DNA of 64,000 bases from Maylandia zebra (taxonomy: Eukaryota > Chordata > Actinopteri > Cichliformes > Cichlidae). The stretch spans positions 1,128,501 through 1,192,500 of the forward strand of contig NC_135187.1 in assembly GCF_041146795.1 (NCBI RefSeq). The letters run 5' to 3'. The number at the start of each line of letters is the position of its first letter. The stretch's first letter is position 1. Below the pieces are notes generated by a model. It was not told the origin of the DNA. It ran no database searches and saw only the letters and a list, made by a program, of their open reading frames with translations. A program made the translations under genes and the position numbers. Positions 7,701 to 55,980 of the stretch are shown here, in pieces.

Positions 7701-7819
7701 ATGATCGCTGACAGCTATAGGATGAATCTCAGTGTCTGAAATGTCGTTCAGCAGTGAGCTGCTGACCAAAAAATAATCCAGACGAGAGTAGGAGTGATGG
7801 ACATGTGAGAAAAAAGTAT

Positions 7820-7827
7820 ATTCCTTA
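7820..7827. repeat. 8-bp target-site duplication (left) of hAT insertion
   Basis: ATTCCTTA, repeated at 8964-8971. Removing one copy plus the insert restores an open endonuclease frame. Confidence 0.85.
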
Positions 7828-8963
7828 TAGGGGTGGGTTTTTATAATCGATTCATCGATTAAAATCGATTCTGGCTTGGATAACGTAAAATCGATTCATT
7901 TAAATCCTGAATCGATTTTTTTAATATAAATTTATTTTGCTTGAAATGCCAGAATCTTTGGTGACATCTCACAAAATTTCAAGAACCACCAAACAGTTAA
8001 GACAGTAAATGAGAGCAGGTACAGGGATTCTGCACATAGACTTAAACACACAGTGCGACCCGCGGATCAGAATCAGTTAGATGTCGCCTTTCTCACGGTT
8101 GGGGCTGAAAGCCGACAGCTCGCTGATCCTGATGTTTCGGCGGGTCCGCGCTTTGTGTTTACGCCCTTTTTGCGCCAATTCTAAAGCTGTTAGTTTGATC
8201 TCTCTCCAAACAATATTGACCGAACCAGCAGCAAAAGAAGATCCAAACGATTCACATAAAATTGTCATGAATTCACTCTGACTTTTACTGTTTTGCTTCC
8301 ACCGCGATGCACAGCTCTCTCTCTCTCTCTCTCTCTCCCTCCCCCCCCCCTCTCTCTCTCTGTACTTCAAGAACAGTTTCCCTTTCTTCATTATTCGCTT
8401 GCTTGTTACGCACCAGTCTACCGTAGTTTACAGCGCTGTCAGCCGCTGTTTTTTTCCCTTTTACATTCTTCCGAAAAGAAAACCTCATTTCTGCTGTTCA
8501 ATACTGAACAAATTTAAACTTTTTAAAATTATTCAAAATGCAAAACGCTTAACCGTGTCTCTAATAAAACCGCTGTAACTTCAGAGGTAATGTTCATATG
8601 TTGATTAATGGTTTTCTTTCGTTTTTGATGTACTGCAGAATATTTTTATAAAATCCCAGGCCAGGAAAATCACCTTCATGTTTTTCTGTGTTTTATCTTC
8701 AGCTACTTTGACACAAAGGCATCTGCTGTGATGCCCACACCTTTGATAAAGTCTTGCGTGTGTCAGCTTCCTTTTTATTGATACAAAAATATGTAAATGT
8801 ACTGATTTGAATTATAATATTTCTGACTGTCAAAATTTCCCAGATTTAAATCGAATCGAATCGAATTAAATCGAATTAAATCGAATCGTGGATCGAATCG
8901 ATTCGGGACCTTGTGAATCGGAATTGAATCGATTCTAGAAATCAGTGACGATACCCAGCAATA
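7828..8963. mobile_element. Non-autonomous hAT-type DNA transposon (1,136 bp)
   Basis: It is bounded by an 8-bp duplication (ATTCCTTA), the hAT hallmark. The termini are imperfect inverted repeats: TAGGGGTGGGT at the left and TATTGCTGGGT read inward from the right. Both subterminal regions are packed with ATCGATT/AATCGATT words (7850-7920 and 8848-8940), possible transposase-binding clusters. The interior holds no transposase ORF; the short ORFs seen have no recognisable domain. A (CT)n and C-run tract is at 8312-8361. The internal part 7895-8310 has a diverged relative at about 51545-51985. The insertion is younger than the host LINE. Confidence 0.85.
8312..8361. repeat. (CT)n / poly-C microsatellite inside the hAT element
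   Basis: CT dinucleotide runs interrupted by a C homopolymer. The related copy near 51.9 kb has no such run, so it probably expanded after the copies separated. Confidence 0.8.
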
Positions 8964-8971
8964 ATTCCTTA
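8964..8971. repeat. 8-bp target-site duplication (right) of hAT insertion
   Basis: ATTCCTTA, identical to 7820-7827. Confidence 0.85.
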
Positions 8972-9265
8972 CTGGTGGGGTGAAGGGAGCGCCATGCATC
9001 GCGAAGACCAAAGTCACTCATATACTGTTTGATTATATTTGTGGACTGCCAATTACGCTGAGTTCGCGCTGTATTGAGCCTATCCATGTCTTCATTTAGT
9101 CCAAGGTTGAGGTCGCCTCCAAGAACAAGTGTGCCATCTAAGTGTTCAGAGAGTGCACTGAAAAAACTGTGAAAGAATGAGGGATCATCAACATTGGGAC
9201 CATATACACTTGCAATACATAGCTTTTTATCACGTATAGATAGTTTAATGATTAAGAATCTGCCC

Positions 9266-9295: not shown

Positions 9296-9324
9296 TTTAT
9301 TAATCAATGCAAAAAGACTTTATT
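9296..9324 (-). promoter_or_regulatory. Two AATAAA poly(A) signals of the mucin-like gene
   Basis: On the minus strand AATAAA occurs at 9324-9319 and again at 9301-9296, about 285 and 305 bases past the stop codon at 9609-9607. Either would give a 3'UTR of about 300 bases ending just before the LINE target site at 9279. Which one is used cannot be told from the sequence. Confidence 0.55.
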
Positions 9325-9606: not shown

Positions 9607-12600
9607 TTAAAAATATGAGCTAAGAACATGTGGTATTAGAGCCAGAACTAGGGACAAAAAGCTGAAGTTGTTAACAATAGCAGAGGAGGTGGTTTTTGTT
9701 GTGGTTGATGATTTAGTTGGGGTTGATGTTGCTGTACTTCGGGTTGTTGTTGGTGCAGTTGTGGTTGTTGTTTTCACAGTTGTGGTTTTTGTTGGGGCGG
9801 CAGTGGTGGTTGGCGCAGTTGTGGTTGTTGTTGGTGCAGTTGTGGTTGTTGTTTTCACAGTTGTGGCTTTTGTTGGGGCGGCAGTTGTGGTTGGCGCAGT
9901 TGTGGTTGTTGTTGGAGCAGCTGTGGCTGTTGTTGGGGCAGCTGTACTTGTTGTTGCAGCACCTATGGTTGAGGGTGCAGTTGGTATTGAGGTTGGAGCA
10001 GCTGTGGTTGTTGTTAGAGAAGCTGTGGTTGTTTTTGGAGCAGCTGTAGTTGTTTTTGGAGCAGCTGTGGTTGTTGTGGGTCCAGTTGTGGTTATTGTTG
10101 AGGCAACAGTTGTGGTTGTTGTTGGAGCATCTGTAGTTGTTGTTGGAGCAGCTGTCGTTGTTGTTGGAACAGGTCTAGTTGTTGTTGGAGCAGCTGTGGT
10201 TGTGGCCGCAGTTGTGGTTGTTGTTGGAGCAGTTGTGGTTGTTGTTGGAGCAGCTGTGGTTGTTGTTTGATGAGGTGTGGTAGTTGGAGCAGCTGTGGTT
10301 GTTGTGGGTGCATCTGCAGTTGTGGGCGCAGTTGTGGTTGTTGTTGGGGAGACAGTTGTGGTTGTTGTTGGGGAGACAGTTGTGGTTTTTGTTGGAGCAG
10401 CTGTGGTTATTGGTGGAGCAGCTGTGGTTGTTGTGGGTGCAGCTGTGGTTGTTGTGGCGAAAGTTGTGGTTGTTGTTGGGGCGACAGTTGTGGTTGTTCT
10501 TGGAACAGCTGTAGTTGTTGGAGCACCTGTACTTGAGGATCTAGTTGTTGTTGTTGGTGGCAAAGCTGTGGTTGTTGTTGGAGCAGCTGTAGTTGTTGTT
10601 GGAGCAGCTGTGGTTGTTGTGGGTGCAGTTGTGGTTGTTGTGGGTGCAGTTGTGGTAGTTGTTGGAGCAGCTGTAGTTGTTGTGGGTGCAGCTGTGGTTG
10701 AGGGTGTTGTTGTTGTTGTTGGGGAAGCTGTGGTTGATGTTGGAGCAGTTGTGGTTGTTGTTGGAGCAGCTGTGGTTATTGTGGGTGCAGTTGTGGTAGT
10801 TGTTGGAGCAGCTGTAGTTGTTGTGGGTGCAGCTGTGGTTGAGGGTGTTGTTGTTGTTGTTGGGGAAGCTGTGGTTGATGTTGGAGCAGCTGTAGTTGTT
10901 GTTGGAGCAGCTGTGTTTGTTGTGGGTGCAATTGTGGTAGTTGTTGGGGAGACAGTTGTGGTTGTTGTTGGAACAGCTGTAGTTGTTGTTGGAGCAGCTG
11001 CAGTTGTGGCCACAGTTGTGGTTGTGGTTGTTGGAGCAGTTGTGGTTGTCTTTGGAGCAGCTGTAGTTGTTGTTGGAGCAGCTGTGGTTGTTGTGGGTGC
11101 AGCTGTGTTTGTTGTGGGTGCAATTGTGGTAGTTGTTGGGGAGACAGTTGTGGTTGTCTTTGGAGCAGCTGTAGTTGTTGTTGGAGCAGCTGCAGTTGTG
11201 GCCACAGTTGTGGTTGTGGTTGTTGGAGCAGTTGTGGTTGTCTTTGGAGCAGCTGTAGTTGTTGTTGGAGCAGCTGTGGTTGTTGTGGGAGCAGCTGTGG
11301 TTGAGGGAGTGTTTGTTGTTGTTGTTGTTGAGGAAGCTGTGGTTGTTGTTGAGGCAGCTGTAGTTGTGGCCGAAATTGTGGTTGTTGTTGGGGAGACAGT
11401 TGTTGTTGTTGTTGGCGCAGTTGTGGTTGTTGTTGGAGCACCTGTAGTTGTTGTTGGAGCAGTTGTGGTTGTTGTTGGGGCAGCTGTGGTTGTTGTGTGT
11501 GCAGTTGTGGCTGTTGTTGCTGTTGGGGAATCTGTGGTTGTTGTTGGAGCAGCTGTAGTTGTTGTTGGAGCAGCTGTGGTTGTTGTGGGTGCAGTTGTGG
11601 TAGTTGTTGTGGCGACAGTTGTGGTTGTTCTTGGAACAGCTGTAGTAGTTGGAGCACCTGTACTTGAGGGTGCAGTTGTTGTTGTTGGTGGCAAAGCTGT
11701 GGTTGTTGTTGGAACAGCTGTAGTTGTTGTTGGAGCAGCTTTAGTTGAGGGTGCAGTTGTGGTTGTTGTTGGAGCAGTTGAAGTTGTTGTTGGAGCAGCT
11801 GTGGTTGTTGTTGGAGCAGCTGTGGTTGTTGTGGGTGCAGTTGTGGTAGTTGTTGGAGCAGCTGTGGTTGTTGTTGGAGCAACTGTGGTTGAGGGTGCAG
11901 TTGGTGTTGTTGTTGGGGCAACAGTTGTTGTTGTTGTTGGAGCAGCTGTAGTTGTTGTTGTAGCAGCTGTGGCTGTTGTTGGGGCAGCTGTGGTTGTGGT
12001 TGGTACAGTTGTGGTTGTGGTTGTTGGAGCAGCAGTTGTTGTTGTTGGAGCACCTGTAGTTGAGGGTGCAGTTGTAGTTGTTGTTACTGTTGGGGAAGCT
12101 GTGGTTCTTGTTGGAGCAGCTGTAGTTGTTGTTGTAGCAGCTGTGGCTGTTGTTGGGGCAGCTGTGGTTGTTGTTGGTGCAGTTGTGGCTGTTGTTAGGG
12201 CGGCAGTTGTGGTTGGTACAGTTGTGGTTGTGGTTGTTGGAGCAGCAGTTGTTGTTGTTGGAGCACCTGTAGTTGAGGGTGCAGTTGTAGTTGTTGTTGC
12301 TGTTGGGGAAGCTGTGGTTCTCGTTGGAGCAGCTGTAGTTGAGGGTGCAGTTGTAGTTGTTGTTGCTGTTGGGGAAGCTGTGGTTCTTGTTGGAGCAGCT
12401 GTAGTTGTTGTTGGAGAAGCTGTGGTTGTTGTTGGAGCATTTGCAGTTGTGGCCAAAGTTGTGGTTGTTGTTGGCGCAGTTGCTGTTGTGGTTGTTGGAG
12501 CAACGGTTGTTGTTGTTGGAGCACCTGTAGTTGACCGTGCAGTTGTTGTTGTTGTTGCTGTTGGGGAAGCTGTGGTTGTTATTGGGGCAACAGTTGTGGT

Positions 12601-15600
12601 TGTTGTTGGAACAGCTGTAGTTGTTGTTGGAGCACCTGTAGTTGATGGTGCAGTTGTTGTTGTTTTTGGGGAAGCTGTTGTTGTTGTTGGAGCAGCTGTG
12701 GTTGTTGTGGGTGCAACAGTTGTGGTAGTTGTTGTGGCGACAGTTGTGGTTGTTCTTGGAACAGCTGTAGTTGTTGGAGCACCTGTACTTGAGGGTGCAG
12801 TTGTTGTTGTTGGTGGCAAAGCTGTGGTTGTTGTTGGAACAGCTGTAGTTGTTGTTGGAGCACCTGTAGTTGAGGGTGCAGTTGTAGTTGTTGTTGGGGA
12901 GGCTGTGGTTGTTGTTGGAGCAGTTGAAGTTGTTGTTGCAGCAGCTGTGGTTGTTGTTGGAGCAGCTGTGGTTGTTGTGGGTGCAGTTGTGGTAGTTGTT
13001 GGAGCAGCTGTGGTTGTTGTTGGAGCAACTGTGGTTGAGGGTGCAGTTGTTGTTGTTGTTGGGGCAACAGTTGTTGTTGTTATTGGAGCAGCTGTAGTTG
13101 TTGTTGGAGCATTTTTGGTTGAGGCAGCAGGTGTAGTTGTTGGGGCAACAGTTGTGGTTGTTGTTGTTTGGGCAACGGTTGTGGTTGTTGTTGGATCAGC
13201 TGTAGTTGTTGTTGGAGCAGCTGTGGTTGTTGTGGGTGAAGTTGTGGTAGTTGTTGTGGCGGCAGTTGTGGTTGTTGTTGGAACAGCTGTAGTTGTTGTT
13301 GGAGCACCTGTAGTTGAGGGTGCAGTTGTTGTTGTTGTTGGAGCAGCTGTGTTTTTTGTGGGTGCAATTGTGGTAGTTGTTTGGGAGACAGTTGTGGTTG
13401 TTGTTGGAACAGCTGTAGTTGTTGTTGGAGCAGCTGCAGTTGTGGCCACAGTTGTGGTTGTTGATGGAGCAGCTGTGGTTGTTGTGTGTGCAGCTGTGGT
13501 TGAGGGTGTTGTTGGTGTTGTTGAGGAAGCTGTGGTTGTTGTTGGGGAAGCTGTAGTTGTTGTTGGAGCAGCTGTGGTTGAGGGAGTTGTTGATGTTGTT
13601 GTTTTTGTTGAGGAAGCTGTGGTTGTTGTTGGGGCAGCTGTGGTTGTTGTTGGTGCAGTTGTGGCTGCTGTTAGGGCGGCAGTTGTGGTTGGCGCAGTTG
13701 TGGTTGTGGTTGTTGGAGCAGCGGTTTTTGTTGTTGGAGCAGCTGTAGTTGTTGTTGGAGCAGCTGTGGTTGTTGTGGGTGCAGTTGTGGTAGTTGTTGT
13801 GGCGACAGTTGTGGTTGTTCTTGGAACAGCTGTAGTTGTTGGAGCACCTGTACTTGAGGGTGCAGTTGTTGTTGTTGGTGAGGAAGCTGTGGTTGTTGTT
13901 GGAACAGCTTTAGTTGTTGTTGGAGCACCTGTAGTTGAGGGTGCAGTTGTAGCTGTTGCTGGGGAGGCTGTGGTTGTTGTTGGAGCAGCTGTAGTTGTTG
14001 TTGTAGCAGCTGTGGCTGTTGTTGTAGCAGCTGTGGCTGTTGTTGGGGCAGCTGTGGTTGTTGTGGGTGCAGTTGTGGTAGTTGTTGTGGCGACAGTTGT
14101 GGTTGTTCTTGGAACAGCTGTAGTTGTTGGAGCACCTGTACTTGAGGGTGCAGTTGTTGTTGTTGGTGAGGAAGCTGTGGTTGTTGTTGGAACAGCTTTA
14201 GTTGTTGTTGGAGCACCTGTAGTTGAGGGTGCAGTTGTAGCTGTTGCTGGGGAGGCTGTGGTTGTTGTTGGAGCAGCTGTAGTTGTTGTTGTAGCAGCTG
14301 TGGCTGTTGTTAGGGCGGCAGTTGTGGTTGGTACAGTTGTGGTTGTTGTTGGAGCAGCTGTGGTTGTTGTGGGTGCAGTTGTGGTTGTTGTTGGAGCAGC
14401 TGTGGTTATAGTGGGTGCAGTTTTGGTAGTTGTTGGAGCAGCTGTACTTGTTGTGGGTGCAGCTGTGGTTGAGGGTGTTGTTGTTGTTGGGGAAGCTGTG
14501 GTTGGTGTTGGAGCAGCTGTGTTTGTTGTGGGTGCAATTGTGGTAGTTGTTGGGGAGACAGTTGTGGTTGTTGTTGGAACAGCTGCAGTTGTGGCCACAG
14601 TTGTGGTAGTTGTTGGAGCAGCTGTGGTTGTTGTTGGAGCAACTGTGGTTGAGGCCGCAGTTGTGATTGTTGGGGCAACAGTTGTGGTTCTTGTTGTTTG
14701 GGCAACGGTTGTGGTTGTTGTTGGAGCAGCTGTAGTTGTTGTTGGAGCAGCTGTGGTTGTTGTGGGTGCAGTTGTGGTAGTTGTTGGGGCGGCAGTTGTG
14801 GTTGTTGTTGGAACAGCTGTAGTTGTTGTTGGAGCACCTGTAGTTGATGGTGTAGTTGTTGTTGTTGTTGGAGCAGCTGTGGTTATAGTGGGTGCAGTTT
14901 TGGTAGTTGTTGGAGCAGCTGTACTTGTTGTGGGTGCAGCTGTGGTTGAGGGTGTTGTTGTTGTTGGGGAAGCTGTGGTTGGTGTTGGAGCAGCTGTGTT
15001 TGTTGTGGGTGCAGTTGTGGTTGTTGTTGGAGCAGCTGTGGTTATAGTGGGTGCAGTTTTGGTAGTTGTTGGAGCAGCTGTACTTGTTGTGGGTGCAGCT
15101 GTGGTTGAGGGTGTTGTTGTTGTTGGGGAAGCTGTGGTTGGTGTTGGAGCAGCTGTGTTTGTTGTGGGTGCAATTGTGGTAGTTGTTGGGGAGACAGTTG
15201 TGGTTGTTGTTGGAACAGATGTAGTTGTTGTTGGAACAGCTGCAGTTGTGGCCACAGTTGTGGTTGTTGTAGAAGCAGCTGTGGTTGTTGTTGGAGCAGC
15301 TGCAGTTGTGGCCGCAGTTGTAGTTGTTGTTGGAGCAGCTGCAGTTGTGGCCACAGTTGTGGTTGTTGTTGGAGGAGTTGTAGTTGTTGTTGGAGCACCT
15401 GTAGTTGATGGTGTAGTTGTTGTTGTTGTTGGGGAAGCTGTGGTAGTTGTTGGGGCGGCAGTTGTGGTTGTTGTTGGAACAGCTATAGTTGTTGTTGGAG
15501 CACCTGTAGTTGATGGTGTAGTTGTTGTTGTTGTTGGGGAAGCTGTGGTTGTTGTTGGAGCAGCTGTAGTTGTTGTTGGAGCAGCTGTGGCTGTTGTTGG

Positions 15601-18600
15601 GGCAGCTGTGGTTGTTGTTGGTGCAGTTGTGGCTGTTGTTAGGGCGGCAGTTGTGGTTGTGGTTGTTGGAACAACTGTTGTTGTTGTTGTTGGAGCACCT
15701 GTAGTTGACGGTGCAGTTGTTGTTGTTGTTGCTGTTGGGGAAGCTGTGGTTGTTGTTGGAGCAGCTGTAGTTGTTATTGGAGCAGCTGTGGTTGAGGGAG
15801 TTGTTGTTGTTGTTGTTTTTGAGGAAGCTGTGGTTGTGGCCACAGTTGTGGTTGTTGTTGGAGCAGCTGTAGTTGTTGTGGGTGCAGCTGTGGTTGTGGG
15901 TGCAGTTGTTGTTGTTGGCGAAGCTGTGGTTGTTGTGGCCTCAGTTGTGGTTGTTGTTGGAGCAGTTGTAGTTGTTGTTGGAGCAGCTGTGGTTGTTGTG
16001 GGTGCAGTTGTGGTAGTTGTTGGAGCAGCTGTGGTTGTTGTTGGAGCAGCTGTGGTTGAGGGTGTTGTTGTTTTTGTTGTTGAGGAAGCTGTGGTTGTTG
16101 TTGGGGCAGCTGTAGTTGTTGTTGGGGCAGCTGTAGTTGTTGTTGGCGAAGCTGTGGTTGTTGTGGCCTCAGTTGTGGTTGTTGTTGGAGCAGTTGTGGT
16201 TGTTGCTGGAACAGCTGTAGTTGTTGTTGGAGCAGCTGCAGTTGTGGCCACAGTTGTGGTTGTTGTTGGAACAGCTGTAGTTGTTTTTGGAGCAGCTGTG
16301 GTTGTTGTTGTAGCAGCTGTGGCTGTTGTTGGGGCAGCTGTGGTTGTTGTTGGTGCAGTTGTGGCTGTTGTTAGGGCGGCAGTTGTGGTTGGTACAGTTG
16401 TGGTTGTGGTTGTTGGGGCAGCAGTTGTTGTTGTTGGAGCACCTGTAGTTGAGGGTGCAGTTGTAGTTGTTGTTGCTGTTGGGGAAGCTGTGGTTCTTGT
16501 TGGAGCAGCTGTAGTTGAGGGTGCAGTTGTAGTTGTTGTTGCTGTTGGGGAAGCTGTGGTTCTTGTTGGAGCAGCTGTAGTTGATGGTGTAGCTGTTGTT
16601 GTTGTTGGGGAAGCTGTGGTTGTTGTTGGAGCAGCTGTAGTTGTTGTTGGAGCAGCTGTGGTTGTTGTGGGTGCAGTTGTGGTTGTTGTTGGAGCAGCTG
16701 TGGTTATAGTGGGTGCAGTTTTGGTAGTTGTTGGAGCAGCTGTACTTGTTGTGGGTGCAGCTGTGGTTGAGGGTGTTGTTGTTGTTGGGGAAGCTGTGGT
16801 TGGTGTTGTTTGGGCAACGGTTGTGGTTGTTGTTGGAGCAGCTGTAGTTGTTGTTGGAGCAGCTGTGGTTGTTGTGGGTGCAGTTGTGGTAGTTGTTGGG
16901 GCGGCAGTTGTGGTTGTTGTTGGAACAGCTGTAGTTGTTGTTGGAGCACCTGTAGTTGATGGTGTAGTTGTTGTTGTTGTTGGGGAAGCTGTGGTTGTTG
17001 TTGGAGCAGCTGTAGTTGTTGTTGGAGCAGCTGTGGTTGTTGTGGGTGCAGTTGTGGTTGTTGTTGGAGCAGCTGTGGTTATAGTGGGTGCAGTTTTGGT
17101 AGTTGTTGGAGCAGCTGTACTTGTTGTGGGTGCAGCTGTGGTGGAGGGTGTTGTTGTTGTTGGGGAAGCTGTGGTTGGTGTTGGAGCAGCTGTGTTTGTT
17201 GTGGGTGCAATTGTGGTAGTTGTTGGGGAGACAGTTGTGGTTGTTGGAACAGATGTAGTTGTTGTTGGAACAGCTGCAGTTGTGGCCACAGTTGTGGTTG
17301 TTGTAGAAGCAGCTGTGGTTGTTGTTGGAGCAGCTGCAGTTGTGGCCAAAGTTGTGGTTGTTGTTGGAGCAGTTGTAGTTGTTGTTGGAGCAGCTGTGGT
17401 TGTTGTTGGAGCAGCTGTGGTTGAGGGTGTTGTTGTTTTTGTTGTTGAGGAAGCTGTGGTTGTTGTTGGGGCAGCTGTAGTTGTTGTTGGCGAAGCTGTG
17501 GTTGTTGTGGCCTCAGTTGTGGTTGTTGTTGGAGCAGTTGTGGTTGTTGTTGGAGCAGCTGTAGTTGTGGCCACAGTTGTTGTTGTTGTTGGAGCAGCTG
17601 TGGTTGAGGGTGTTGTTGTTTTTGTTGTTGAGGAAGCTGTGGTTGTTGTTGGGGCAGCTGTAGTTGTTGTTGGAGCAGCTGTAGTTGTTGTTGGAGCAGC
17701 TGTGGTTGTGGCCACAGTTGTGGTTGTTGTTGGAACAGCTGTAGTTGTTGTTGGAGCAGCTGCAGTTGTGGCCACAGTTGTGGTTGTTGTTGGAACAGCT
17801 GTAGTTGTTGTTGGAGCAGCTGTGGTTGTTGTTGGGGCAGCTGTAGTTGTTGTTGGAGCAGCTGTGGTTGAGGGAGTTGTTGTTGTTGTTGTTGTTGAGG
17901 AAGTTGTGGTTGTTGTTGGGGCAGCTGTAGTTGTTGTTGGAGCAGCTGTGGTTGAGAGTGCAGTTGTAGTTGTTGTTGCTGTTGGGGAAGCTGTGGTTCT
18001 TGTTGGAGCAGCTGTAGTTGAGGGTGCAGTTGTAGTTGTTGTTGCTGTTGGGGAAGCTGTGGTTCTTGTTGGAGCAGCTGTAGTTGATGGTGTAGCTGTT
18101 GTTGTTGTTGGTGAAGCTGTGGTTGTTGTGGGTGCAGTTGTGGTTGTTGTTGGAGCAGCTGTGGTTATAGTGGGTGCAGTTTTGGTAGTTGTTGGAGCAG
18201 CTGTACTTGTTGTGGGTGCAGCTGTGGTTGAGGGTGTTGTTGTTGTTGGGGAAGCTGTGGTTGGTGTTGTTTGGGCAACGGTTGTGGTTGTTGTTGGAGC
18301 AGCTGTAGTTGTTGTTGGAGCAGCTGTGGTTGTTGTGGGTGCAGTTGTGGTAGTTGTTGGGGCGGCAGTTGTGGTTGTTGTTGGAACAGCTGTAGTTGTT
18401 GTTGGAGCACCTGTAGTTGATGGTGTAGTTGTTGTTGTTGTTGGGGAAGCTGTGGTTGTTGTTGGAGCAGCTGTAGTTGTTGTTGGAGCTGCTGTGGTTG
18501 TTGTGGGTGCAGTTGTGGTTGTTGTTGGAGCAGCTGTGGTTATAGTGGGTGCAGTTTTGGTAGTTGTTGGAGCAGCTGTACTTGTTGTGGGTGCAGCTGT

Positions 18601-36600: not shown

Positions 36601-39600
36601 AGCAGCTGTGGTTATAGTGGGTGCAGTTTTGGTAGTTGTTGGAGCAGCTGTGGTTGTTGTTGGAGCAGCTGCAGTTGTGGGTGCAGTTGTGGTAGTTGTT
36701 GGGGCGGCAGTTGTGGTTGTTGTTGGAGCAGCTGTGGTTGAGGGTGTTGTTGTTTTTGTTGTTGAGGAAGCTGTGGTTGTTGTTGGGGCAGCTGTAGTTG
36801 TTGTTGGAGCAGCTGTAGTTGTTGTTGGAGCAGCTGTGGTTGTGGCCACAGTTGTGGTTGTTGTAGAAGCAGCTGTGGTTGTTGTTGGAGCAGCTGCAGT
36901 TGTGGCCAAAGTTGTGGTTGTTGTTGGAGCAGTTGTGGTTGTTGTTGGCGAAGCTGTGGTTGTTGTGGCCTCAGTTGTGGTTGTTGTTGGAGCAGTTGTA
37001 GTTGTTGTTGGAGCAGCTGTGGTTGTTGTGGGTGCAGTTGTGGTAGTTGTTGGAGCAGCTGTGGTTGTTGTTGGAGCAGCTGTGGTTGAGGGTGTTGTTG
37101 TTTTTGTTGTTGAGGAAGCTGTGGTTGTTGTTGGGGCAGCTGTAGTTGTTGTTGGCGAAGCTGTGGTTGTTGTGGCCTCAGTTCTGGTTGTTGTTGGAGC
37201 AGTTGTGGTTGTTGTTGGAGCAGCTGTAGTTGTTGTTGGAGCAGCTGCAGTTGTGGCCACAGTTGTTGTTGTTGTTGGAGCAGCTGTGGTTGAGGGTGTT
37301 GTTGTTTTTGTTGTTGAGGAAGCTGTGGTTGTTGTTGGGGCAGCTGTAGTTGTTGTTGGAGCAGCTGTAGTTGTTGTTGGAGCAGCTGTGGTTGAGGGTG
37401 TTGTTGTTGTTGGGGAAGCTGTGGTTGGTGTTGTTTGGGCAACGGTTGTGGTTGTTGTTGGAGCAGCTGTAGTTGTTGTTGGAGCAGCTGTGGTTGTTGT
37501 GGGTGCAGTTGTGGTAGTTGTTGGGGCGGCAGTTTTGGTTGTTGTTGGAACAGCTGTAGTTGTTGTTGGAGCACCTGTAGTTGATGGTGTAGTTGTTGTT
37601 GTTGTTGGAGCAGCTGTGGTTGAGGGTGTTGTTGTTTTTGTTGTTGAGGAAGCTGTGGTTGTTGTTGGAGCAGCTGTGGTTGAGGGTTTTGTTGTTTTTG
37701 TTGTTGAGGAAGCTGTGGTTGTTGTGGGTGCAGTTGTGGTAGTTGTTGGAGCAGCTGTGGTTGTTGTTGGAGCAGCTGTGGTTGAGGGTGTTGTTGTTTT
37801 TTTTGTTGAGGAAGCTGTGGTTGTTGTTGGGGCAGCTGTAGTTGTTGTTGGCGAAGCTGTGGTTGTTGTGGCCTCAGTTGTGGTTGTTGTTGGAGCAGTT
37901 GTGGTTGTTGTTGGAGCAGCTGTAGTTGTTGTTGGAGCAGCTGTGGTTGTGGCCACAGTTGTGGTTGTTGTAGAAGCAGCTGTGGTTGTTGTTGGAGCAG
38001 CTGCAGTTGTGGCCAAAGTTGTGGTTGTTGTTGGAGCAGTTGTGGTTGTTGTTGGCGAAGCTGTGGTTGTTGTGGCCTCAGTTGTGGTTGTTGTTGGAGC
38101 AGTTGTAGTTGTTGTTGGAGCAGCTGTGGTTGTTGTGGGTGCAGTTGTGGTAGTTGTTGGAGCAGCTGTGGTTGTTGTTGGAGCAGCTGTGGTTGAGGGT
38201 GTTGTTGTTTTTGTTGTTGAGGAAGCTGTGGTTGTTGTTGGGGCAGCTGTAGTTGTTGTTGGCGAAGCTGTGGTTGTTGTGGCCTCAGTTGTGGTTGTTG
38301 TTGGAGCAGTTGTGGTTGTTGTTGGAGCAGCTGTAGTTGTTGTTGGAGCAGCTGCAGTTGTGGCCACAGTTGTTGTTGTTGTTGGAGCAGCTGTGGTTGA
38401 GGGTGTTGTTGTTTTTGTTGTTGAGGAAGCTGTGGTTGTTGTTGGGGCAGCTGTAGTTGTTGTTGGAGCAGCTGTAGTTGTTGTTGGAGCAGCTGTGGTT
38501 GTGGCCACAGTTGTGGTTGTTGTTGGAGCAGTTGTAGTTGTTGTTGTTGGGGCAGCTGTGGTTGTTGTGGGTGCAGTTGTGGTAGTTGTTGGAGCAGCTG
38601 TGGTTGTTGTTGGAGCAGCTGTGGTTGTGGCCACAGTTGTGGTTGTTGTTGGAGCAGTTGTAGTTGTTGTTGGAGCAGCTGTGGTTGTTGTGGGTGCAGT
38701 TGTGGTAGTTGTTGGAGCAGCTGTGGTTGTTGTTGGAGCAGCTGTAGTTGTTGTTGGAGCAGCTGCAGTTGTGGCCACAGTTGTTGTTGTTGTTGGAGCA
38801 GCTGTGGTTGAGGGTGTTGTTGTTTTTGTTGTTGAGGAAGCTGTGGTTGTTGTTGGGGCAGCTGTAGTTGTTGTTGGGGCAGCTGTAGTTGTTGTTGGAG
38901 CAGCTGTAGTTGTTGTTGGAGCAGCTGTGGTTGTGGCCACAGTTGTGGTTGTTGTTGGAGCAGTTGTAGTTGTTGTTGGAGCAGCTGTGGTTGTTGTGGG
39001 TGCAGTTGTGGTAGTTGTTGGAGCAGCTGTGGTTGTTGTTGGAGCAGCTGTGGTTGAGGGTGTTGTTGTTTTTGTTGTTGAGGAAGCTGTGGTTGTTGTT
39101 GGGGCAGCTGTAGTTGTTGTTGGCGAAGCTGTGGTTGTTGTGGCCTCAGTTCTGGTTGTTGTTGGAGCAGTTGTGGTTGTTGTTGGAGCAGCTGTAGTTG
39201 TTGTTGGAGCAGCTGCAGTTGTGGCCACAGTTGTTGTTGTTGTTGGAGCAGCTGTGGTTGAGGGTGTTGTTGTTTTTGTTGTTGAGGAAGCTGTGGTTGT
39301 TGTTGGGGCAGCTGTAGTTGTTGTTGGAGCAGCTGTAGTTGTTGTTGGAGCAGCTGTGGTTGAGGGTGTTGTTGTTGTTGGGGAAGCTGTGGTTGGTGTT
39401 GTTTGGGCAACGGTTGTGGTTGTTGTTGGAGCAGCTGTAGTTGTTGTTGGAGCAGCTGTGGTTGTTGTGGGTGCAGTTGTGGTAGTTGTTGGGGCGGCAG
39501 TTTTGGTTGTTGTTGGAACAGCTGTAGTTGTTGTTGGAGCACCTGTAGTTGATGGTGTAGTTGTTGTTGTTGTTGGAGCAGCTGTGGTTGAGGGTGTTGT

Positions 39601-40454
39601 TGTTTTTGTTGTTGAGGAAGCTGTGGTTGTTGTTGGAGCAGCTGTGGTTGAGGGTGTTGTTGTTTTTGTTGTTGAGGAAGCTGTGGTTGTTGTGGGTGCA
39701 GTTGTGGTAGTTGTTGGAGCAGCTGTGGTTGTTGTTGGAGCAGCTGTGGTTGAGGGTGTTGTTGTTTTTGTTGTTGAGGAAGCTGTGGTTGTTGTTGGGG
39801 CAGCTGTAGTTGTTGTTGGCGAAACTGTGGTTGTTGTGGCCTCAGTTGTGGTTGTTGTTGGAGCAGTTGTGGTTGTTGTTGGAGCAGCTGTAGTTGTTGT
39901 TGGAGCAGCTGCAGTTGTGGCCACAGTTGTTGTTGTTGTTGGAGCAGCTGTGGTTGAGGGTGTTGTTGTTTTTGTTGTTGAGGAAGCTGTGGTTGTTGTT
40001 GGGGCAGCTGTAGTTGTTGTTGGAGCAGCTGTAGTTGTTGTTGGAGCAGCTGTGGTTGTGGCCACAGTTGTGGTTGTTGTTGGAACAGCTGTAGTTGTTG
40101 TTGGAGCAGCTGTGGTTGTTGTTGGGGCAGCTGTAGTTGTTGTTGGAGCAGCTGTGGTTGAGGGAGTTGTTGTTGTTGTTGAGGAAGTTGTGGTTGTTGT
40201 TGGGGCAGCTGTAGTTGTTGTTGGAGCAGCTGTGGTTGAGGGAGTTGTTGCTGTTGTTGTTGTTGTTGAGGAAGCTGTGGTTGTTGTTGGGGCAGCTGTG
40301 GTTGTTGTTGGTGCAGTTGTGGCTGTTGCTAGGGCGGCAGTTGTGGTTGGAGCAGTTGTGGTTGTTGTTGGCGAAGCTGTGGTTGTTGTTGGAGCAGTTG
40401 TGGTTGTTGTTGGAACAGCTGTAGTTGTTGTTGGAGCAGCTGTGGTTGAGGGAG

Positions 40455-40492
<38 letters not shown>

Positions 40493-42665
40493 GAGGAAGC
40501 TGTGGTTGTTGTTGGGGCAGCTGTGGTTGTTGTTGGTGCAGTTGTGGCTGTTGTTAGGGCGGCAGTTGTTGTTGGAGCAGCTGTAGTTGTTGTTGGAGCA
40601 GTTGTGGTTGAGGGAGTTGTTGTTGTTGTTGTTGTTGTTGAGGAAGCTGTGGTTGTTGTTGGGGCAGCTGTGGTTGTTGTTGGTGCAGTTGTGGTTGTTG
40701 TTGGAACAGCTGTAGTTGTTGTTGGAGCAGCTGTGGTTGAGGGAGTTGTTGTTGTTGTTGTTGTTGTTGAGGAAGCTGTGGTTGTTGTTGGGGCAGCTGT
40801 GGTTGTTGTTGGTGCAGTTGTGGCTGTTGTTAGGGCGGCAGTTGTGGTTGGAGCAGTTGTAGTTGTTGTTGGAGCAGCTGTAGTTGTTGTTGGAGCAGCT
40901 GCAGTTGTTGTGGGTGCAGTTGTGGTAGTTGTTGGGGCGGCAGTTGTGGTTGTTGTTGGAACAGCTGTAGTTGTTGTTGGAGCACCTGTAGTTGATGGTG
41001 TAGTTGTTGTTGTTGTTGGGGAAGCTGTGGTTGTTGTTGGAGCAGCTGTAGTTGTTGTTGGAGCAGCTGTGGTTGTTGTTGGAGCAGCTGTGGTTGTTGT
41101 GGGTGCAGTTGTGGTTGTTGTTGGAGCAGCTGTGGTTATAGTGGGTGCAGTTTTGGTAGTTGTTGGAGCAGCTGTACCTGTTGTGGGTGCAGCTGTGGTT
41201 GAGGGTGTTGTTGTTGTTGGGGAAGCTGTGGTTGGTGTTGGAGCAGCTGTGGTTGTTGTGGCCTCAGTTGTGGTTGTTGTTGGAGCAGTTGTAGTTGTTG
41301 TTGGAGCAGCTGTGGTTGTTGTGGGTGCAGTTGTGGTAGTTGTTGGAGCAGCTGTGGTTGTTGTTGGAGCAGCTGTGGTTGAGGGTGTTGTTGTTTTTGT
41401 TGTTGAGGAAGCTGTGGTTGTTGTTGGGGCAGCTGTAGTTGTTGTTGGCGAAGCTGTGGTTGTTGTGGCCTCAGTTGTGGTTGTTGTTGGAGCAGTTGTG
41501 GTTGTTGTTGGAGCAGCTGTAGTTGTTGTTGGAGCAGCTGCAGTTGTGGCCACAGTTGTTGTTGTTGTTGGAGCAGCTGTGGTTGAGGGTGTTGTTGTTT
41601 TTGTTGTTGAGGAAGCTGTGGTTGTTGTTGGGGCAGCTGTAGTTGTTGTTGGAGCAGCTGTAGTTGTTGTTGGAGCAGCTGTGGTTGTGGCCACAGTTGT
41701 GGTTGTTGTTGGAACAGCTGTAGTTGTTGTTGGAGCAGCTGCAGTTGTGGCCACAGTTGTGGTTGTTGTTGGAACAGCTGTAGTTGTTGTTGGAGCAGCT
41801 GTGGTTGTTGTTGGGGCAGCTGTAGTTGTTGTTGGAGCAGCTGTGGTTGAGGGAGTTGTTGTTGTTGTTGTTGTTGAGGAAGTTGTGGTTGTTGTTGGGG
41901 CAGCTGTAGTTGTTGTTGGAGCAGCTGTGGTTGAGGGAGTTGTTGTTGTTGTTGTTGTTGAGGAAGCTGTGGTTGTTGTTGGAGCAGCTGTGGTTGTTGT
42001 TGGTGCAGTTGTGGCTGTTGTTAGGGCGGCAGTTGTGGTTGGAGCAGTTGTAGTTGTTGTTGGAGCAGCTGTGGTTGAGGGTGTTGTTGTTGTTGTTGGT
42101 GGCAAAGCTGTGGTTGTTGTTTGAGCAGCTGTAGTTGTTGTTGGCGAAGCTGTGGTTGTTGTGGCCTCAGTTGTGGTTGTTGTTGGAGCAGTTGTGGTTG
42201 TTGTTGGAGCAGCTGTAGTTGTTGTTGGAGCAGCTGCAGTTGTGGCCACAGTTGTTGTTGTTGTTGGAGCAGCTGTGGTTGAAGGTGTTGTTGTTTTTGC
42301 TGTTGGGGAAGCTTTGGTTGTTGTTGGAGCAGCTGTAGTTTTTGTTGGAGAAGATGTGGTTGTTGTGGGTGCAGTTGTTGTTGAGGGTGCAGTCGTGGTT
42401 GTTGTTGGAGCAGCTGAGGTTGTTGTTGGAGCAGCTGTGGTTGAGGGAGTTGTTGTTGTTGTTGTTGTTGAGGAAGCTGTGGTTGTTGTTGGGGCAGCTG
42501 TAGTTGTTGTTGGAGCAGCTGTGGTTGAGGGAGTTGTTGTTGTTGTTGTTGTTGTTGTTGAGGAAGCTGTGGTTGTTGTTGGGGCAGCTGTGGTTGTTGT
42601 TGGAGCAGTTGTGGTTGTGGTTGGAACAGCTGTAGTTGTTGTTGGAGCAGCTGTGGTTGAGGGAG

Positions 42666-42697
<32 letters not shown>

Positions 42698-45600
42698 GAG
42701 GAAGCTGTGGTTGTTGTTGGGGCAGCTGTGGTTGTTGTTGGTGCAGTTGTGGCTGTTGTTAGGGCGGCAGTTGTGGTTGGAGCAGTTGTAGTTGTTGTTG
42801 GAGCAGCTGTAGTTGTTGTTGGAGCAGCTGTGGTTGAGGGTGTTGTTGTTGTTGTTGGTGGCAAAGCTGTGGTTGTTGTTTGAGCAGTTGTGGCTGTTGT
42901 TAGGGCGGCAGTTGTGGTTGGAGCAGTTGTAGTTGTTGTTGGAGCAGCTGTAGTTGTTGTTGGAGCAGCTGTGGTTGAGGGTGTTGTTGTTGTTGTTGGT
43001 GGCAAAGCTGTGGTTGTTGTTTGAGCAGCTGTAGTTGTTGTTGGCGAAGCTGTGGTTGTTGTTGGGGCAGCTGTGGTTGTTGTTGGTGCAGTTGTGGCTG
43101 TTGTTGGCGAAGCTGTGGTTGTTGTGGCCTCAGTTGTGGTTGTTGTTGGAGCAGTTGTAGTTGTTGTTGGAGCAGCTGTGGTTGAGGGAGTCGCTGTTGT
43201 TGTTGTTGTTGTTGTTGGGGAAGCTGTGGATGGTGTTGGAGCAGCTGTGTTTGTTGTGGGTGCAATTGTGGTAGTTGTTGGGGAGACAGTTGTGGTTGGA
43301 GCAGTTGTGGTTGTTGTTGGCGAAGCTGTGGTTGTTGTTGGAGCAGTTGTGGTTGTTGTTGGAACAGCTGTAGTTGTTGTTGGAGCAGCTGTGATTGAGG
43401 GAGTTGTTGTTGTTGTTGTTGAGGAAGCTGTGGTTGTTGTTGGGGCAGCTGTGGTTGTTGTTGGTGGAGTTGTGGCTGTTGTTAGGGCGGCAGTTGTGGT
43501 TGGAGCAGTTGTAGTTGTTGTTGGAGCAGCTGTAGTTGTTGTTGGAGCAGCTGTGGTTGAGGGTGTTGTTGTTGTTGTTGGTGGCAAAGCTGTGGTTGTT
43601 GTTTGAGCAGTTGTGGCTGTTGTTAGGGCGGCAGTTGTGGTTGGAGCAGTTGTAGTTGTTGTTGGAGCAGCTGTAGTGTTTGTTGGAGCAGCTGTGGTTG
43701 AGGGTGTTGTTGTTGTTGGTGGCAAAGCTGTGGTTGTTGTTTGAGCAGCTGTAGTTGTTGTTGGCGAAGCTGTGGTTGTTGTTGGAGCAGTTGTGGTTGT
43801 TGTTGGAGCAGCTGTAGTTGTTGTTGGAGCAGCTGCAGTTGTGGCCACAGTTGTTGTTGTTGTTGGAGCAGCTGTAGTTGTTGTTGGAACAGCTGCAGTT
43901 GTGGCCACAGTTGTGGTTGTTGTTGAAGCAGCTGTGGTTGTTGTTGGAGCAGCTGAAGTTGTGGCCAAAGTTGTGGTTGTTGTTGGAGCAGTTGTGGTTG
44001 TTGTTGGCGAAGCTGTGGTTGTTGTGGCCTCAGTTGTGGTTGTTGTTGGAGCAGTTGTAGTTGTTGTTGGCGAAGCTGTGGTTGTTGTTGGAGCAGTTGT
44101 GGTTGTTGTTGGAACAGCTGTAGTTGTTGTTGGAGCAGCTGTGGTTGAGGGAGTTGTTGTTGTTGTTGTTGTTGTTGAGGAAGCTGTGGTTGTTGTTGGT
44201 GCAGTTGTGGCTGTTGTTAGGGCGGCAGTTGTTGTTGGAGCAGCTGTAGTTGTTGTTGGAGCAGTTGTGGTTGTTGTTGGAACAGCTGTAGTTGTTGTTG
44301 GGGCAGCTGTGGTTGTTGTTGGTGCAGTTGTGGCTGTTGTTAGGGCGGCAGTTGTGGTTGGAGCAGTTGTAGTTGTTGTTGGAGCAGCTGTAGTTGTTGT
44401 TGGAGCAGCTGCAGTTGTTGTGGGTGCAGTTGTGGTAGTTGTTGGGGCGGCAGTTGTGGTTGTTGTTGGAACAGCTGTAGTTGTTGTTGGAGCACCTGTA
44501 GTTGATGGTGTAGTTGTTGTTGTTGGGGAAGCTGTGGTTGTTGTTGGAGCAGCTGTAGTTGTTGTTGGAGCAGCTGTGGTTGTTGTTGGAGCAGCTGTGG
44601 TTGTTGTGGGTGCAGTTGTGGTTGTTGTTGGAGCAGCTGTGGTTATAGTGGGTGCAGTTTTGGTAGTTGTTGGAGCAGCTGTACCTGTTGTGGGTGCAGC
44701 TGTGGTTGAGGGTGTTGTTGTTGTTGGGGAAGCTGTGGTTGGTGTTGGAGCAGCTGTGGTTGTTGTGGCCTCAGTTGTGGTTGTTGTTGGAGCAGTTGTA
44801 GTTGTTGTTGGAGCAGCTGTGGTTGTTGTGGGTGCAGTTGTGGTAGTTGTTGGAGCAGCTGTGGTTGTTGTTGGAGCAGCTGTGGTTGAGGGTGTTGTTG
44901 TTTTTGTTGTTGAGGAAGCTGTGGTTGTTGTTGGGGCAGCTGTAGTTGTTGTTGGCGAAGCTGTGGTTGTTGTGGCCTCAGTTGTGGTTGTTGTTGGAGC
45001 AGTTGTGGTTGTTGTTGGAGCAGCTGTAGTTGTTGTTGGAGCAGCTGCAGTTGTGGCCACAGTTGTTGTTGTTGTTGGAGCAGCTGTGGTTGAGGGTGTT
45101 GTTGTTTTTGTTGTTGAGGAAGCTGTGGTTGTTGTTGGGGCAGCTGTAGTTGTTGTTGGAGCAGCTGTAGTTGTTGTTGGAGCAGCTGTGGTTGTGGCCA
45201 CAGTTGTGGTTGTTGTTGGAACAGCTGTAGTTGTTGTTGGAGCAGCTGCAGTTGTGGCCACAGTTGTGGTTGTTGTTGGAACAGCTGTAGTTGTTGTTGG
45301 AGCAGCTGTAGTTGTTTTTGGGGCAGCTGTAGTTGTTGTTGGAGCAGCTGTGGTTGAGGGAGTTGTTGTTGTTGTTGTTGTTGAGGAAGTTGTGGTTGTT
45401 GTTGGGGCAGCTGTAGTTGTTGTTGGAGCAGCTGTGGTTGAGGGAGTTGTTGTTGTTGTTGTTGTTGTTGAGGAAGCTGTGGTTGTTGTTGGAGCAGCTG
45501 TGGTTGTTGTTGGTGCAGTTGTGGCTGTTGTTAGGGCGGCAGTTGTGGTTGGAGCAGTTGTAGTTGTTGTTGGAGCAGCTGTGGTTGAGGGTGTTGTTGT

Positions 45601-47306
45601 TGTTTTTGGTGGCAAAGCTGTGGTTGTTGTTTGAGCAGCTGTAGTTGTTGTTGGCGAAGCTGTGGTTGTTGTGGCCTCAGTTGTGGTTGTTGTTGGAGCA
45701 GTTGTGGTTGTTGTTGGAGCAGCTGTAGTTGTTGTTGGAGCAGCTGCAGTTGTGGCCACAGTTGTTGTTGTTGTTGGAGCAGCTGTGGTTGAAGGTGTTG
45801 TTGTTTTTGTTGTTGAGGAAGCTGTGGTTGTTGTTGGGGCGGCTGTGGTTGTTGTTGGGTCAGTTGTGGCTGTTGTTACGGCGGCAGTTGTGGTTGGCGC
45901 AGTTGTGGTGTTGGTTGTTGGAGCAGTGGTTGTTGTTGTTGGAGCACCTGTAGTTGAGGGTGCAGTTGTTGTTGTTGTTGCTGTTGGGGAAGCTTTGGTT
46001 GTTGTTGGAGCAGCTGTAGTTTTTGTTGGAGAAGATGTGGTTGTTGTGGGTGCAGTTGTTGTTGAGGGTGCAGTCGTGGTTGTTGTTGGAGCAGCTGTAG
46101 TTGTTGTTGGAGCAGCTGAGGTTGAGGGAGTTGTTGTTGTTGTTGTTGTTGAGGAAGCTGTGGTTGTTGTTGGGGCGGCTGTGGTTGTTGTTGGTGTAGT
46201 TGTGGCTGTTGTTACGGCGGCAGTTGTGGTTGGCGCAGTTGTGGTTGTGGGTGTTGGAGCAGCGGTTGTTGTTGTTGGAGCACCTGTAGTTGAGGGTGCA
46301 GTTGTTGTTGTTGTTGCTGTTGGGGAAGCTGTGGTTGTTGTTGGAGCAGCTGTAGTTGTTGTTGGAGAAGATGTGGTTGTTGTGGGTGTAGTTGTTGTTG
46401 AGCGTGCAGTTGTGGTTGTTGTTGGAACAGCTGTAGTTTTTGTTGGAGCAGCTGAGGTTGTTGTTGGAGCAGCTGTGGTTGAGGGAGTTGTTGTTGTTGT
46501 TGTTGTTGTTGAGGAAGCTGTGGTTGTTGTTGGGGCAGCTGTAGTTGTTGTTGGAGCAGCTGTGGTTGAGGGAGTTGTTGTTGTTGTTGTTGTTGAGGAA
46601 GCTGTGGTTGTTGTTGGGGCAGCTGTGGTTGTTGTTGGTGCAGTTGTGGCTGTTGTTAGGGCGGCAGTTGTGGTTGGAGCAGTTGTAGTTGTTGTTGGAG
46701 CAGCTGTGGTTGTTGTGGGTGCAGTTGTGGTTGTTGTTGGAGCAGCTGTGGTTGTTGTTGGAGCAGCTGTAGTTGTTGTTGGAGCAGCTGCAGTTGTGGC
46801 CACAGTTGTGGTTGTTGTTGGAGCAGCTGTGGTTGAGGGTGTTGTTGCTGCTGTTGTTGTTGAGGAAGCTGTGGTTGTTGTTGGGGCAGCTGTAGTTGTT
46901 GTTGGAGCAGTTGTGGTAGTTGTTATGGTAGCTGTGGTTATTGTGGGTGCAGTGGTAGTTGTTGTTGGAGCAGCTGTAGTTGTTGTGGGTGCAGCTGTGG
47001 TTGAGGGTGTTGTTGTTGTTGTTGGGGAAGCTGTGGCTGTTGTTGGAACAGCTGTAGTTGTTGTTGGAGCAGCTGCAGTTGTGGCCACAGTTGTGGTTGT
47101 TGATGAAGCAGTTGTGGTTGTTGTTGGAGCAGCTGTAGTTGTTGGAGCAGCTGTGGTTGTTGTGGGGGTAGCTGTGTTTGTGGGTGCAGCTGTTGTAGTT
47201 GTTTGAGCAGTTGTGGCTATCACTGTGGTTGTTGTTGGAGCATCTGTAGTTGTTACCGCAGTTATGGTTGTTGTTGGGGCTGCAGTTGTTGATATTGGTG
47301 TGGTAG
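9607..47306 (-). CDS. Giant Thr/Pro/Ala-rich mucin-like protein, main exon (37.7 kb)
   Basis: One uninterrupted frame that, joined to the exon at 47404-47443, encodes 12,579 residues. The protein is nearly all heptad-like units of the form A-P-T-T-T-T-(A/T/S/V), an ideal substrate for mucin-type O-glycosylation. I notice no Cys, and aromatic residues appear only at the C-terminus. Rare residues (E in TTEATTTT, K in PTKTT, L in PTTTAALTTATT, G in PSTTGAP) mark larger repeats. The C-terminus reads SSAIVNN followed by FSFLSLVLALIPHVLSSYF and the stop. Small residues, a spacer, about 19 hydrophobic residues and no cytoplasmic tail fit a GPI-anchor signal, though a C-terminal membrane anchor is possible. 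It probably coats an epithelial surface (inference). There are no VWD, SEA or cysteine-knot domains, so it is not a gel-forming mucin. The exon starts after the acceptor TCTGCACAG at 47307. An open frame with a GTG starts at 47223, but the acceptor and in-phase first exon give a better start. Confidence 0.8.
16450..20875 (-). repeat. Higher-order repeat A: 1,461-bp period, three copies
   Basis: The marker GGTTATAGTGGGTGCAG recurs near 16702, 18163 and 19624, and its partner near 17075, 18536 and 19997, each step exactly 1,461 bp (487 codons). The copies are near-identical, apart from a 42-bp difference at the start of the first. A partial fourth copy starts near 21030. Recent tandem duplication by unequal exchange is the simplest reading. 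Confidence 0.85.
23175..27735 (-). repeat. Higher-order repeat B: about 2,283-bp period, two copies
   Basis: Matching landmarks such as TTGGTACAGTTGTGG (23291 and 25569) and the start of the GTTGAGGGTGTTGTTGTTTT block (23819 and 26102) are separated by 2,277-2,283 bp. All such offsets are multiples of three. Later landmarks are offset by 2,262 bp, showing one-unit losses within a copy. Confidence 0.8.
27688..47200 (-). repeat. Higher-order repeat C: segmental duplication of about 7.8-8.2 kb, two full copies and one partial
   Basis: The same ordered block starts near 27719, 35543 and 43772 (offsets 7,824 and 8,229 bp). Within it, 28523 matches 36302 (offset 7,779), 34820 matches 43052 (8,232), and 33515 matches the block near 45752. 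Offsets differ because whole-unit indels occurred, but every one checked is divisible by three. The third copy lacks part of the interior and runs into the N-terminal end of the array. Confidence 0.8.
40455..40493 (-). repeat. Longest poly-Thr tract, (TTG)13 on plus strand
   Basis: Thirteen consecutive TTG triplets give a run of about 13 Thr in the protein. Shorter versions (5-9) occur at the equivalent place in related units, so this triplet run is a second, slippage-type source of length change. Confidence 0.8.
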
Positions 47307-47403
47307 CTGTGCAGACTTAGTAGAAACTATTTTGTTATTTTTACATGTGGTTAGATAATTAAACTAAATATAACAGTTTCTCATGAATATACGTTTGTCT
47401 TAC
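47307..47403 (-). other. 97-bp intron of the mucin-like gene (predicted)
   Basis: On the minus strand the donor is TTG/GTAAGA at 47403 and the acceptor TCTGCACAG/CT at 47307, with a TACTAAG branch-like word just upstream. Splicing joins a phase-1 exon end (G) to CT, making GCT (Ala) and keeping the array frame. Unspliced, the first exon meets a stop after a few codons. Confidence 0.65.
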
Positions 47404-47443
47404 CAACAAATAGAAGAAATCTGACACCAATCTTTTCACCCAT
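47404..47443 (-). CDS. First coding exon of the mucin-like gene: signal peptide
   Basis: ATG at 47443-47441 sits in ATCACCATGG, an excellent Kozak context, with an in-frame TAG upstream. The exon encodes MGEKIGVRFLLFV and, across the splice, Ala, then TTPISTTAAP of the mucin region. A Lys near the start, a short hydrophobic core and an Ala before polar residues fit a secretory signal peptide. The core is shorter than usual, so another short exon or a different donor cannot be excluded. Confidence 0.62.
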
Positions 47444-47470
47444 GGTGATGGTGTTTCCCTGTTGCCTTCT
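47444..47470 (-). other. 5'UTR part of the signal-peptide exon (predicted)
   Basis: Minus strand: ATCATTTTTAG at 47481-47471 is a possible 3' splice site, after which AGAAGGCAACAGG leads to the ATG. Confidence 0.4.
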
Positions 47471-48194
47471 CTAAAAATGATAATTGATGTGGATAACATG
47501 TATTAGAGAGCCTAAAAACATAATCTGTCCACAATAGAAATTTTATTTTGTTTAACCATCCATAGAATAAAAAATTTTATTTCATTAAAAACTTTAAACA
47601 TTAAAGTTCTAACATATTCCTTTTTTAATTCATGATGGAAACTTTACATTTAAAAGTCCCTTGTATTCTTTCTAGTCATAAATATTTTTCCTACCAGGGC
47701 TTTCTCGGTATACTTCTGCAACTTTTCACTTTTCTTTAGTTCATAATAGTTTCACAATTAGTCTACATGTTTCAGTACACTGTTTGTTTGAACGAAAAGC
47801 ATAGTATTAATAATGGATGACAGAAAAAACTTTATAGTTGATTGGTCATCAAAGTATCATTGAATATTAGAGAAAGGGATGATTCAGTTAGACATGCTGT
47901 ACATCATGTTGAATGCGATATTGTAAACCATTATTCTCTCAAACACCTTAAGTTTTCTTCCTAGTATTTTTGAAACAAAAAACTTTCCAGGAGAAAAAAA
48001 TAGGCAAAGAAGTTATAAATAAATACATTTTTGTTAATATTTTATCAGTGATTTTTTGAACGTCGTTGAGTAACTCATGTGTGACTCAATATATTCTAAA
48101 CTGATTACAGACGGAAAAAAGAACACACAAAAACAGTTCACCTTAAATATCACATGTTGATGTCAGTTATTTCTTTTTTTATAGGATTACTTAC
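47471..48194 (-). other. 5'UTR intron of the mucin-like gene (predicted), 724 bp
   Basis: Bounded by a consensus donor AT/GTAAGT (48194-48189, minus strand) and the acceptor TTTTTAG at 47471. The sequence is AT-rich with no coding region or recognised repeat. Confidence 0.4.
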
Positions 48195-48240
48195 ATATTA
48201 CTTCTCTGCTTGTATGTCGTCTTCTGAAGTGGAAGAAAGT
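48195..48240 (-). other. Short non-coding first exon of the mucin-like gene (predicted)
   Basis: About 45 bases from an expected transcription start some 25-30 bases below the TATA-like box to a strong GTAAGT donor. The start position is approximate. Confidence 0.4.
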
Positions 48241-48261
48241 GCTTTCTGATTTGAGCTCCTC

Positions 48262-48269
48262 CTTTTATG
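48262..48269 (-). promoter_or_regulatory. TATA-like box of the mucin-like gene
   Basis: CATAAAAG on the minus strand matches 7 of 8 bases of TATAAAAG. Spacing to the donor at 48194 leaves a short 5'UTR exon. A TATA-type core promoter would suit a tissue-restricted secretory gene (inference). Confidence 0.4.
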
Positions 48270-55284: not shown

Positions 55285-55975
<691 letters not shown>

Positions 55976-55980
55976 TCCAC

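Follow-up and report, generated by a model that had tools for sequence, protein, structure and literature searches.

CD24 and CD52 are mini-mucins anchored by glycosylphosphatidylinositol (GPI), in which a signal exon is followed by an O-glycosylated stretch that closes with a GPI signal; the GPI-anchored mucins of Trypanosoma cruzi, which make up a gene family, are built of a signal peptide, a Thr-rich middle and a GPI tail. In this work, we have analysed a 64,000-nucleotide stretch of the Maylandia zebra genome (C21:1128501-1192500, hereafter the window), the minus strand of which carries G11, a frame for a giant Thr-rich protein. From the sequence of this locus and of its paralogs, we consider it probable that G11 is a functional coding gene of a ray-finned fish and the largest of a tandem family of predicted GPI-anchored, domainless mucins. 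Its likeness to CD24 and CD52 is confined to the two-exon plan, with no sequence relationship implied, and these proteins are tens of residues long; with the T. cruzi mucins it is again only the plan that is alike, the organism being unrelated and the proteins much shorter.

The repeat domain of mucins is reported to lie in one large exon (PMC1552070, PMC13345508), and VWD or SEA domains are said to occur in all mucins but MUC7 and MUC20 (PMC1552070); neither VWD nor SEA was found in G11. Human MUC3B and MUC12 resemble the predicted fish gene in being clustered surface mucins with their repeats in a single giant exon (PMC9578598), but the fish gene has no Pfam domain, bears a GPI-like tail and has two coding exons. 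A preliminary description of the locus had placed its main exon above the coding exons usually cited. In T2T-CHM13, exon 2 of MUC3B measures 39,267 bp and the exon carrying the MUC12 repeats 32,428 bp (PMC9578598), and MUC12 alleles reach 23,080 amino acids (aa) (PMC13345508); since the MUC3B exon and the MUC12 alleles exceed G11, its size is not exceptional and the 37.7-kb exon holds no record. Another very long repetitive glycoprotein gene, that of the spider glue spidroin AgSp1, has a coding sequence of 42,270 bp split over two similarly sized exons, so that each is shorter than the array exon of G11; unlike G11, it has conserved spidroin termini and encodes a secreted glue (PMC6553539). 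The claim that no named family has this architecture holds in part: in the literature searched (most subscription papers lay outside the coverage) we found no described fish family of this plan, but a sea bream transcriptome contains a transcript named 'Uncharacterized threonine-rich GPI-anchored glycoprotein PJ4664.02-like' (PMC10864312), which by its name alone would be a Thr-rich GPI fish protein.

Results

The repeat array is constrained as a coding frame

The protein predicted from G11 consists of 57.6% T, 20.0% A, 11.9% P and 5.0% S, and thus has the long Ser/Thr/Pro-rich repeat domain that defines mucins in the broad sense. This domain lies within a single open exon of 37.7 kb, and in the 11 paralogs the array likewise occupies a single exon. 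Tandem Repeats Finder (TRF) resolves the Thr/Ala/Pro array (9742..47216, minus strand) into ~1,818 copies of a 21-bp unit, with 72% matches and 7% indels; a 60-bp unit also fits. Over its 12,491 codons there is no stop in the coding frame, while the other sense frames contain 54 and 73 stops and the antisense frames 28, 377 and 542. Six repeat words were searched for in all frames alike, and each is confined to one phase (1418, 887, 620, 341, 498 and 596 occurrences), and the distances separating duplicated 80-mers are multiples of three in 1402 cases out of 1402. When codons 7, 20, 27, 34 or 48 apart are compared, the mismatch is ~0.10 at position 2, as against 0.35-0.45 for position 1 and 0.38-0.53 for position 3. 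The codon TCA, one step from both TAA and TGA, occurs 341 times, and neither stop is found in frame; from the rate of AAA plus AGA next to ACA (140 per 4,993), ~9.6 TAA/TGA would be expected, a figure that has to be read with the copies not being independent. Among recent internal duplicates, the ratio of nonsynonymous to synonymous differences per site (pN/pS) is 0.68 in G11 and 0.32 in G0, a second giant of the family; a version of the calculation with overlapping pairs gave 0.60 for G11, 0.32 for G0, 0.71 for G12 and 0.42 for G3.

G11 belongs to a cluster of at least twelve genes

The genome searched comprises 962 Mb in 63 contigs. Its RAG1, the coding sequence of which lies in two blocks, gives 1137-1139 bits against the zebrafish RAG1 sequences of PDB entries 3jbw, 6dbi and 6dbv and 989-999 bits against 12 others of the 17 sequences listed, mouse RAG1 among them, in support of a ray-finned fish. 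The searches for copies of the gene score the best candidates only, and the copy counts are lower bounds. At least 12 genes of the same plan and one remnant lie within ~255 kb of C21. Used as a DNA query, the last 154 bp of G11 found at least 10 further copies of the tail, none of them outside contig C21, as well as 8 more short matches inside the array of G11 itself; used as a protein query, the tail matched at least 12 other places on C21 and, weakly, one on C14 (E 4). The predicted products are of 9,479 aa (G0), 363 (G1), 929 (G2), 1,253 (G3), 819 (G4), 649 (G5), 513 (G6), 449 (G7), 793 (G8), 908 (G9), 12,582 (G11, the gene of the window) and 1,864 (G12), an up to 35-fold difference in length. 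In all twelve, the signal exon has 40 bp of coding sequence and is followed by a phase-1 intron (84-94 bp) and a single array exon, which has no internal stop and ends in the common tail. Taking these predicted genes together, G11 does not stand alone: the tandem family to which it belongs numbers at least 12 genes, and none of its other known members is as large. The second giant, G0 (C21:960067-988596), has a 28.4-kb array exon, a strong leader and the TATA/leader exon. The family remnant, near C21 1110752, consists of a piece of tail that contains a TGA, and it lacks a large array.

A TATA box with a leader exon in the 5' untranslated region (UTR) accompanies G11 and 10 of the 11 paralogs. 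The promoter region (window 48330-48134), which takes in the TATA box, the leader exon and the GTAAGT donor, matches G0-G9 at 74-76%, that is 75-76% in the nine genes G0-G8 and 74% over 171 bp in G9, with five genes aligned; the TATA of G1 sits farther upstream, and G12 shows no match to this region. Downstream of the stop, AATAAA-like signals are present in the genes examined, G1-G8 and G11, and the 3' UTR is identical to that of G11 at 0.73-0.75 in G0, G1 and G3, 0.50 in G9 and 0.96 in G12. Three promoter-region fragments of 50-54 bp also occur at C21:989097, 1076286 and 1014975, ~0.5-1.3 kb downstream of G0, G8 and G1, respectively.

Gene model of G11

All features of the model lie on the minus strand of the window, and the exon ends are predictions from the sequence and the paralogs. 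A TATA-like box, CATAAAAGG, is read at 48261..48269 and aligns with those of G0, G2, G3 and G9. It would be followed by an untranslated leader exon (48195..48240), the 5' end of which, at ~48240, was deduced from the TATA box. The first intron (47471..48194) opens with a GTAAGT donor at 48194, aligned in the paralogs, and closes with an AG acceptor ending at 47471. The signal exon begins its coding part with the ATG at 47443 and runs for 40 bp to the next donor at 47403 (47404..47443), encoding MGEKIGVRFLLFV plus one base; its length and phase are identical in 12/12 genes. A phase-1 second intron of 88 bp (47316..47403) leads into the array exon, whose coding part (9607..47315), set by the open frame and by comparison with the paralogs, ends with the stop at 9607-9609. 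The tail, TSSAIVNNFSFLSLVLALIPHVLSSYF plus the stop (9607..9690), contains the hydrophobic peak and is aligned in 12/12 genes, and two AATAAA poly-A signals follow, with starts at 9324 and 9301 (9296..9324). The TATA box, splice sites, ATG and AATAAA signals are thus where the preliminary description had put them, and the entire model from promoter to poly-A signal, through leader, signal exon, array exon and tail, now finds support in the eleven paralogs of this genome.

From 47306 to 9607 on the minus strand, a frame of 37,700 bp stays open, and together with the 40-bp exon it gives one protein; this joined length is divisible by three, as had been claimed, with a sole, terminal stop. The earlier figure of ~12,580 residues counts the stop codon, the model in question encoding 12,579 aa; with the acceptor ending at 47316, the protein has 12,582 aa.

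The two lengths reflect the acceptor of the second intron. In the ten paralogs G0-G9 a CAG acceptor stands ahead of CC TGC TGC AAY GCN, which results in leaders like MIAKMFVIVLLVV-ACCNA, and in G12 a TAG acceptor gives GGANA. At the homologous site of G11, CTACTAAG is followed across the junction by TC TGC ACA GCT ACC, so that an AAG acceptor ends at 47316 and yields MGEKIGVRFLLFV-VCTA-TTP; in this product the residues at positions -1 and -3 of the likely cleavage site remain small, as in the family. The CAG proposed earlier, ending at 47307, is indeed present and in frame, with an intron of 97 bp and three residues fewer, but it is not the acceptor homologous to those of the paralogs. Because of this homology we favour the predicted acceptor ending at 47316 as the more likely of the two.

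Leader, tail and domain content

By the Kyte-Doolittle scale over 15 residues, the C-terminal hydrophobic peaks reach 1.89-2.43 in 12/12 genes, and the interior maxima, computed for the two giants, are 0.9 and 0.76. By eye and by hydropathy, all twelve tails show the order expected of a GPI signal, the small residues TSSA, a short spacer and a hydrophobic end. In G11 only four residues, SSYF, follow the peak, unlike the transmembrane segment and cytoplasmic tail of the SEA type. Hydropathy also points to a strong hydrophobic leader in the 11 paralogs. Over 12,565 aa of the array exon, Pfam returned no family at E <= 0.001, SEA included; the features of gel-forming mucins, VWD and other cysteine-rich domains, are thus missing, and the whole protein contains one Cys. 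If cleaved as assumed, the mature backbone would be of 1,185 kDa with ~7,868 Ser/Thr.

Array lengths differ among recent copies

G1-G8 (C21:1016-1075 kb) are 98.1-100% identical in their 5' segments and 99.4-100% in their 3' segments, and their lengths range from 363 to 1,253 aa (3.5-fold); by this comparison they are recent copies, with G1 inverted relative to G2-G8. Arrays of different lineages have few 30-mers in common (between 4 and 191 in ten pairs compared), and the best-fitting unit is of 42, 105 or 21 bp for G1-G8, of 24 or 21 for G0 and of 21 or 60 for G11; each array therefore seems to have expanded and been homogenised independently. G11 and G12 have a common 3' block of ~540 bp at 91% (~200 bp of it coding) and no 5' homology, which suggests a recent exchange at their 3' ends.

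Surroundings of the gene

Near the 3' end of G11, frames resembling those of a long interspersed nuclear element (LINE) occupy window 4764-9200 (minus strand), with an RVT_1 reverse transcriptase domain in 6222-7769, and another LINE-like stretch, with frames that resemble an endonuclease and RVT_1, lies at 55285-58246 (plus strand). A MADF/Myb-like domain fragment, perhaps derived from a transposon, is found at 54738-54929 (minus strand). Scanning the window with Rfam and for tRNAs gave no hit, and 5,000 N (C21:1192501-1197500) adjoin its right edge.

Discussion

Several results weigh against G11 being a functional member of a GPI-anchored family. Its pN/pS of 0.68 is only mildly under 1, and the neutral nonsense changes expected among recent duplicates are just 3.2 in G11 and 0.21 in G0; because only 3.2 are expected, their absence in G11 is weak evidence. 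Comparisons of the short ends give pN 0.050 and pS 0.047 for the tails of G11 and G12, and pN 0.133 and pS 0.113 for the signal exons of G1 and G9. The leader of G11 is the weakest of the 12, with a best 8-residue hydropathy of 2.92 against 3.31-4.0 and an arginine beside the hydrophobic core, and its AAG acceptor departs from the CAG or TAG of the 11 others. Searches of a protein collection, which may contain no fish, returned nothing at E <= 10 with two tails (114 and 1,019 candidates) and nothing at E <= 1 with the N-terminus (8,000 candidates scored). The weak leader of G11, together with a GPI judgement that rests on hydropathy and conservation, leaves a small chance that the protein is coded and expressed in another form, either as a soluble secreted mucin or with its hydrophobic end kept as a membrane anchor; against this, small residues (TSSA) precede the hydrophobic end in 12/12 genes, and so few residues lie beyond the peak that there is no cytoplasmic tail.

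The same leader and acceptor could be read, with the pN/pS of 0.68, as early signs of loss, G11 being a silent or decaying member of a real family; or the length of its array could be inflated, 91% of the coding sequence lying in repeated 60-mers that are hard to assemble. We hold this unlikely: 37.7 kb contain no stop or frameshift, and G11 still has its promoter, its donors and its poly-A signals. Among the duplicated blocks listed, the larger ones have mean identities of 0.91-0.97, unlike assembly copies; because they differ by a few per cent, inflation is disfavoured, and G0 is a second giant. The least probable explanation, to which we give very little weight, is a non-coding minisatellite whose unit is a multiple of three and which is open by chance. 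Units of 21 bp do preserve frames by default, an antisense frame also holds an open stretch of 3,954 aa, and few codons could become a stop by a single change (1,010 out of 112,842 possible changes). But no indel breaks the frame, codon position 2 is conserved, and signal exon, splice sites, tail and promoter are conserved around 12 different arrays; this evidence from phase, codon position and paralogs led us to set the chance minisatellite aside. For a non-coding control, TRF found no array of at least 600 bp outside the family genes in 300 kb.

If G11 is, as we think probable, a coding gene for a GPI-anchored mucin, its chain would enter the endoplasmic reticulum, where the leader may be cut after VCTA and the tail would be exchanged for a GPI anchor near TSSA. 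Many of the ~7,870 Ser/Thr would presumably carry O-glycans, stiffening the ~1.2-MDa backbone into a rod. Usual mucin spacing is ~0.2-0.25 nm per residue, and at this spacing the rod could reach 2.5-3 micrometres. G11 and its shorter siblings would cover an epithelial surface with a brush of glycans, graded in height, each chain held by one lipid anchor, so that one cut could release it, and array length would shift fast through in-frame unequal exchange.

What may these genes mean for the fish? We propose, tentatively, that they represent a domainless class of fish mucin whose evolving trait is the length of the array itself, a micrometre-scale brush held by single GPI anchors and shed by one enzymatic cut, and offering a route to surface mucus without gel formation of the VWD type. 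If expressed, the cluster would offer a natural series in which one mucin design, its ends much alike, varies in length from 363 to 12,582 residues, so that a single animal would suffice to test how length affects a glycocalyx. As the cluster also shows, a giant Thr-rich frame in a fish genome may easily be taken for a minisatellite and yet be a gene with conserved ends.
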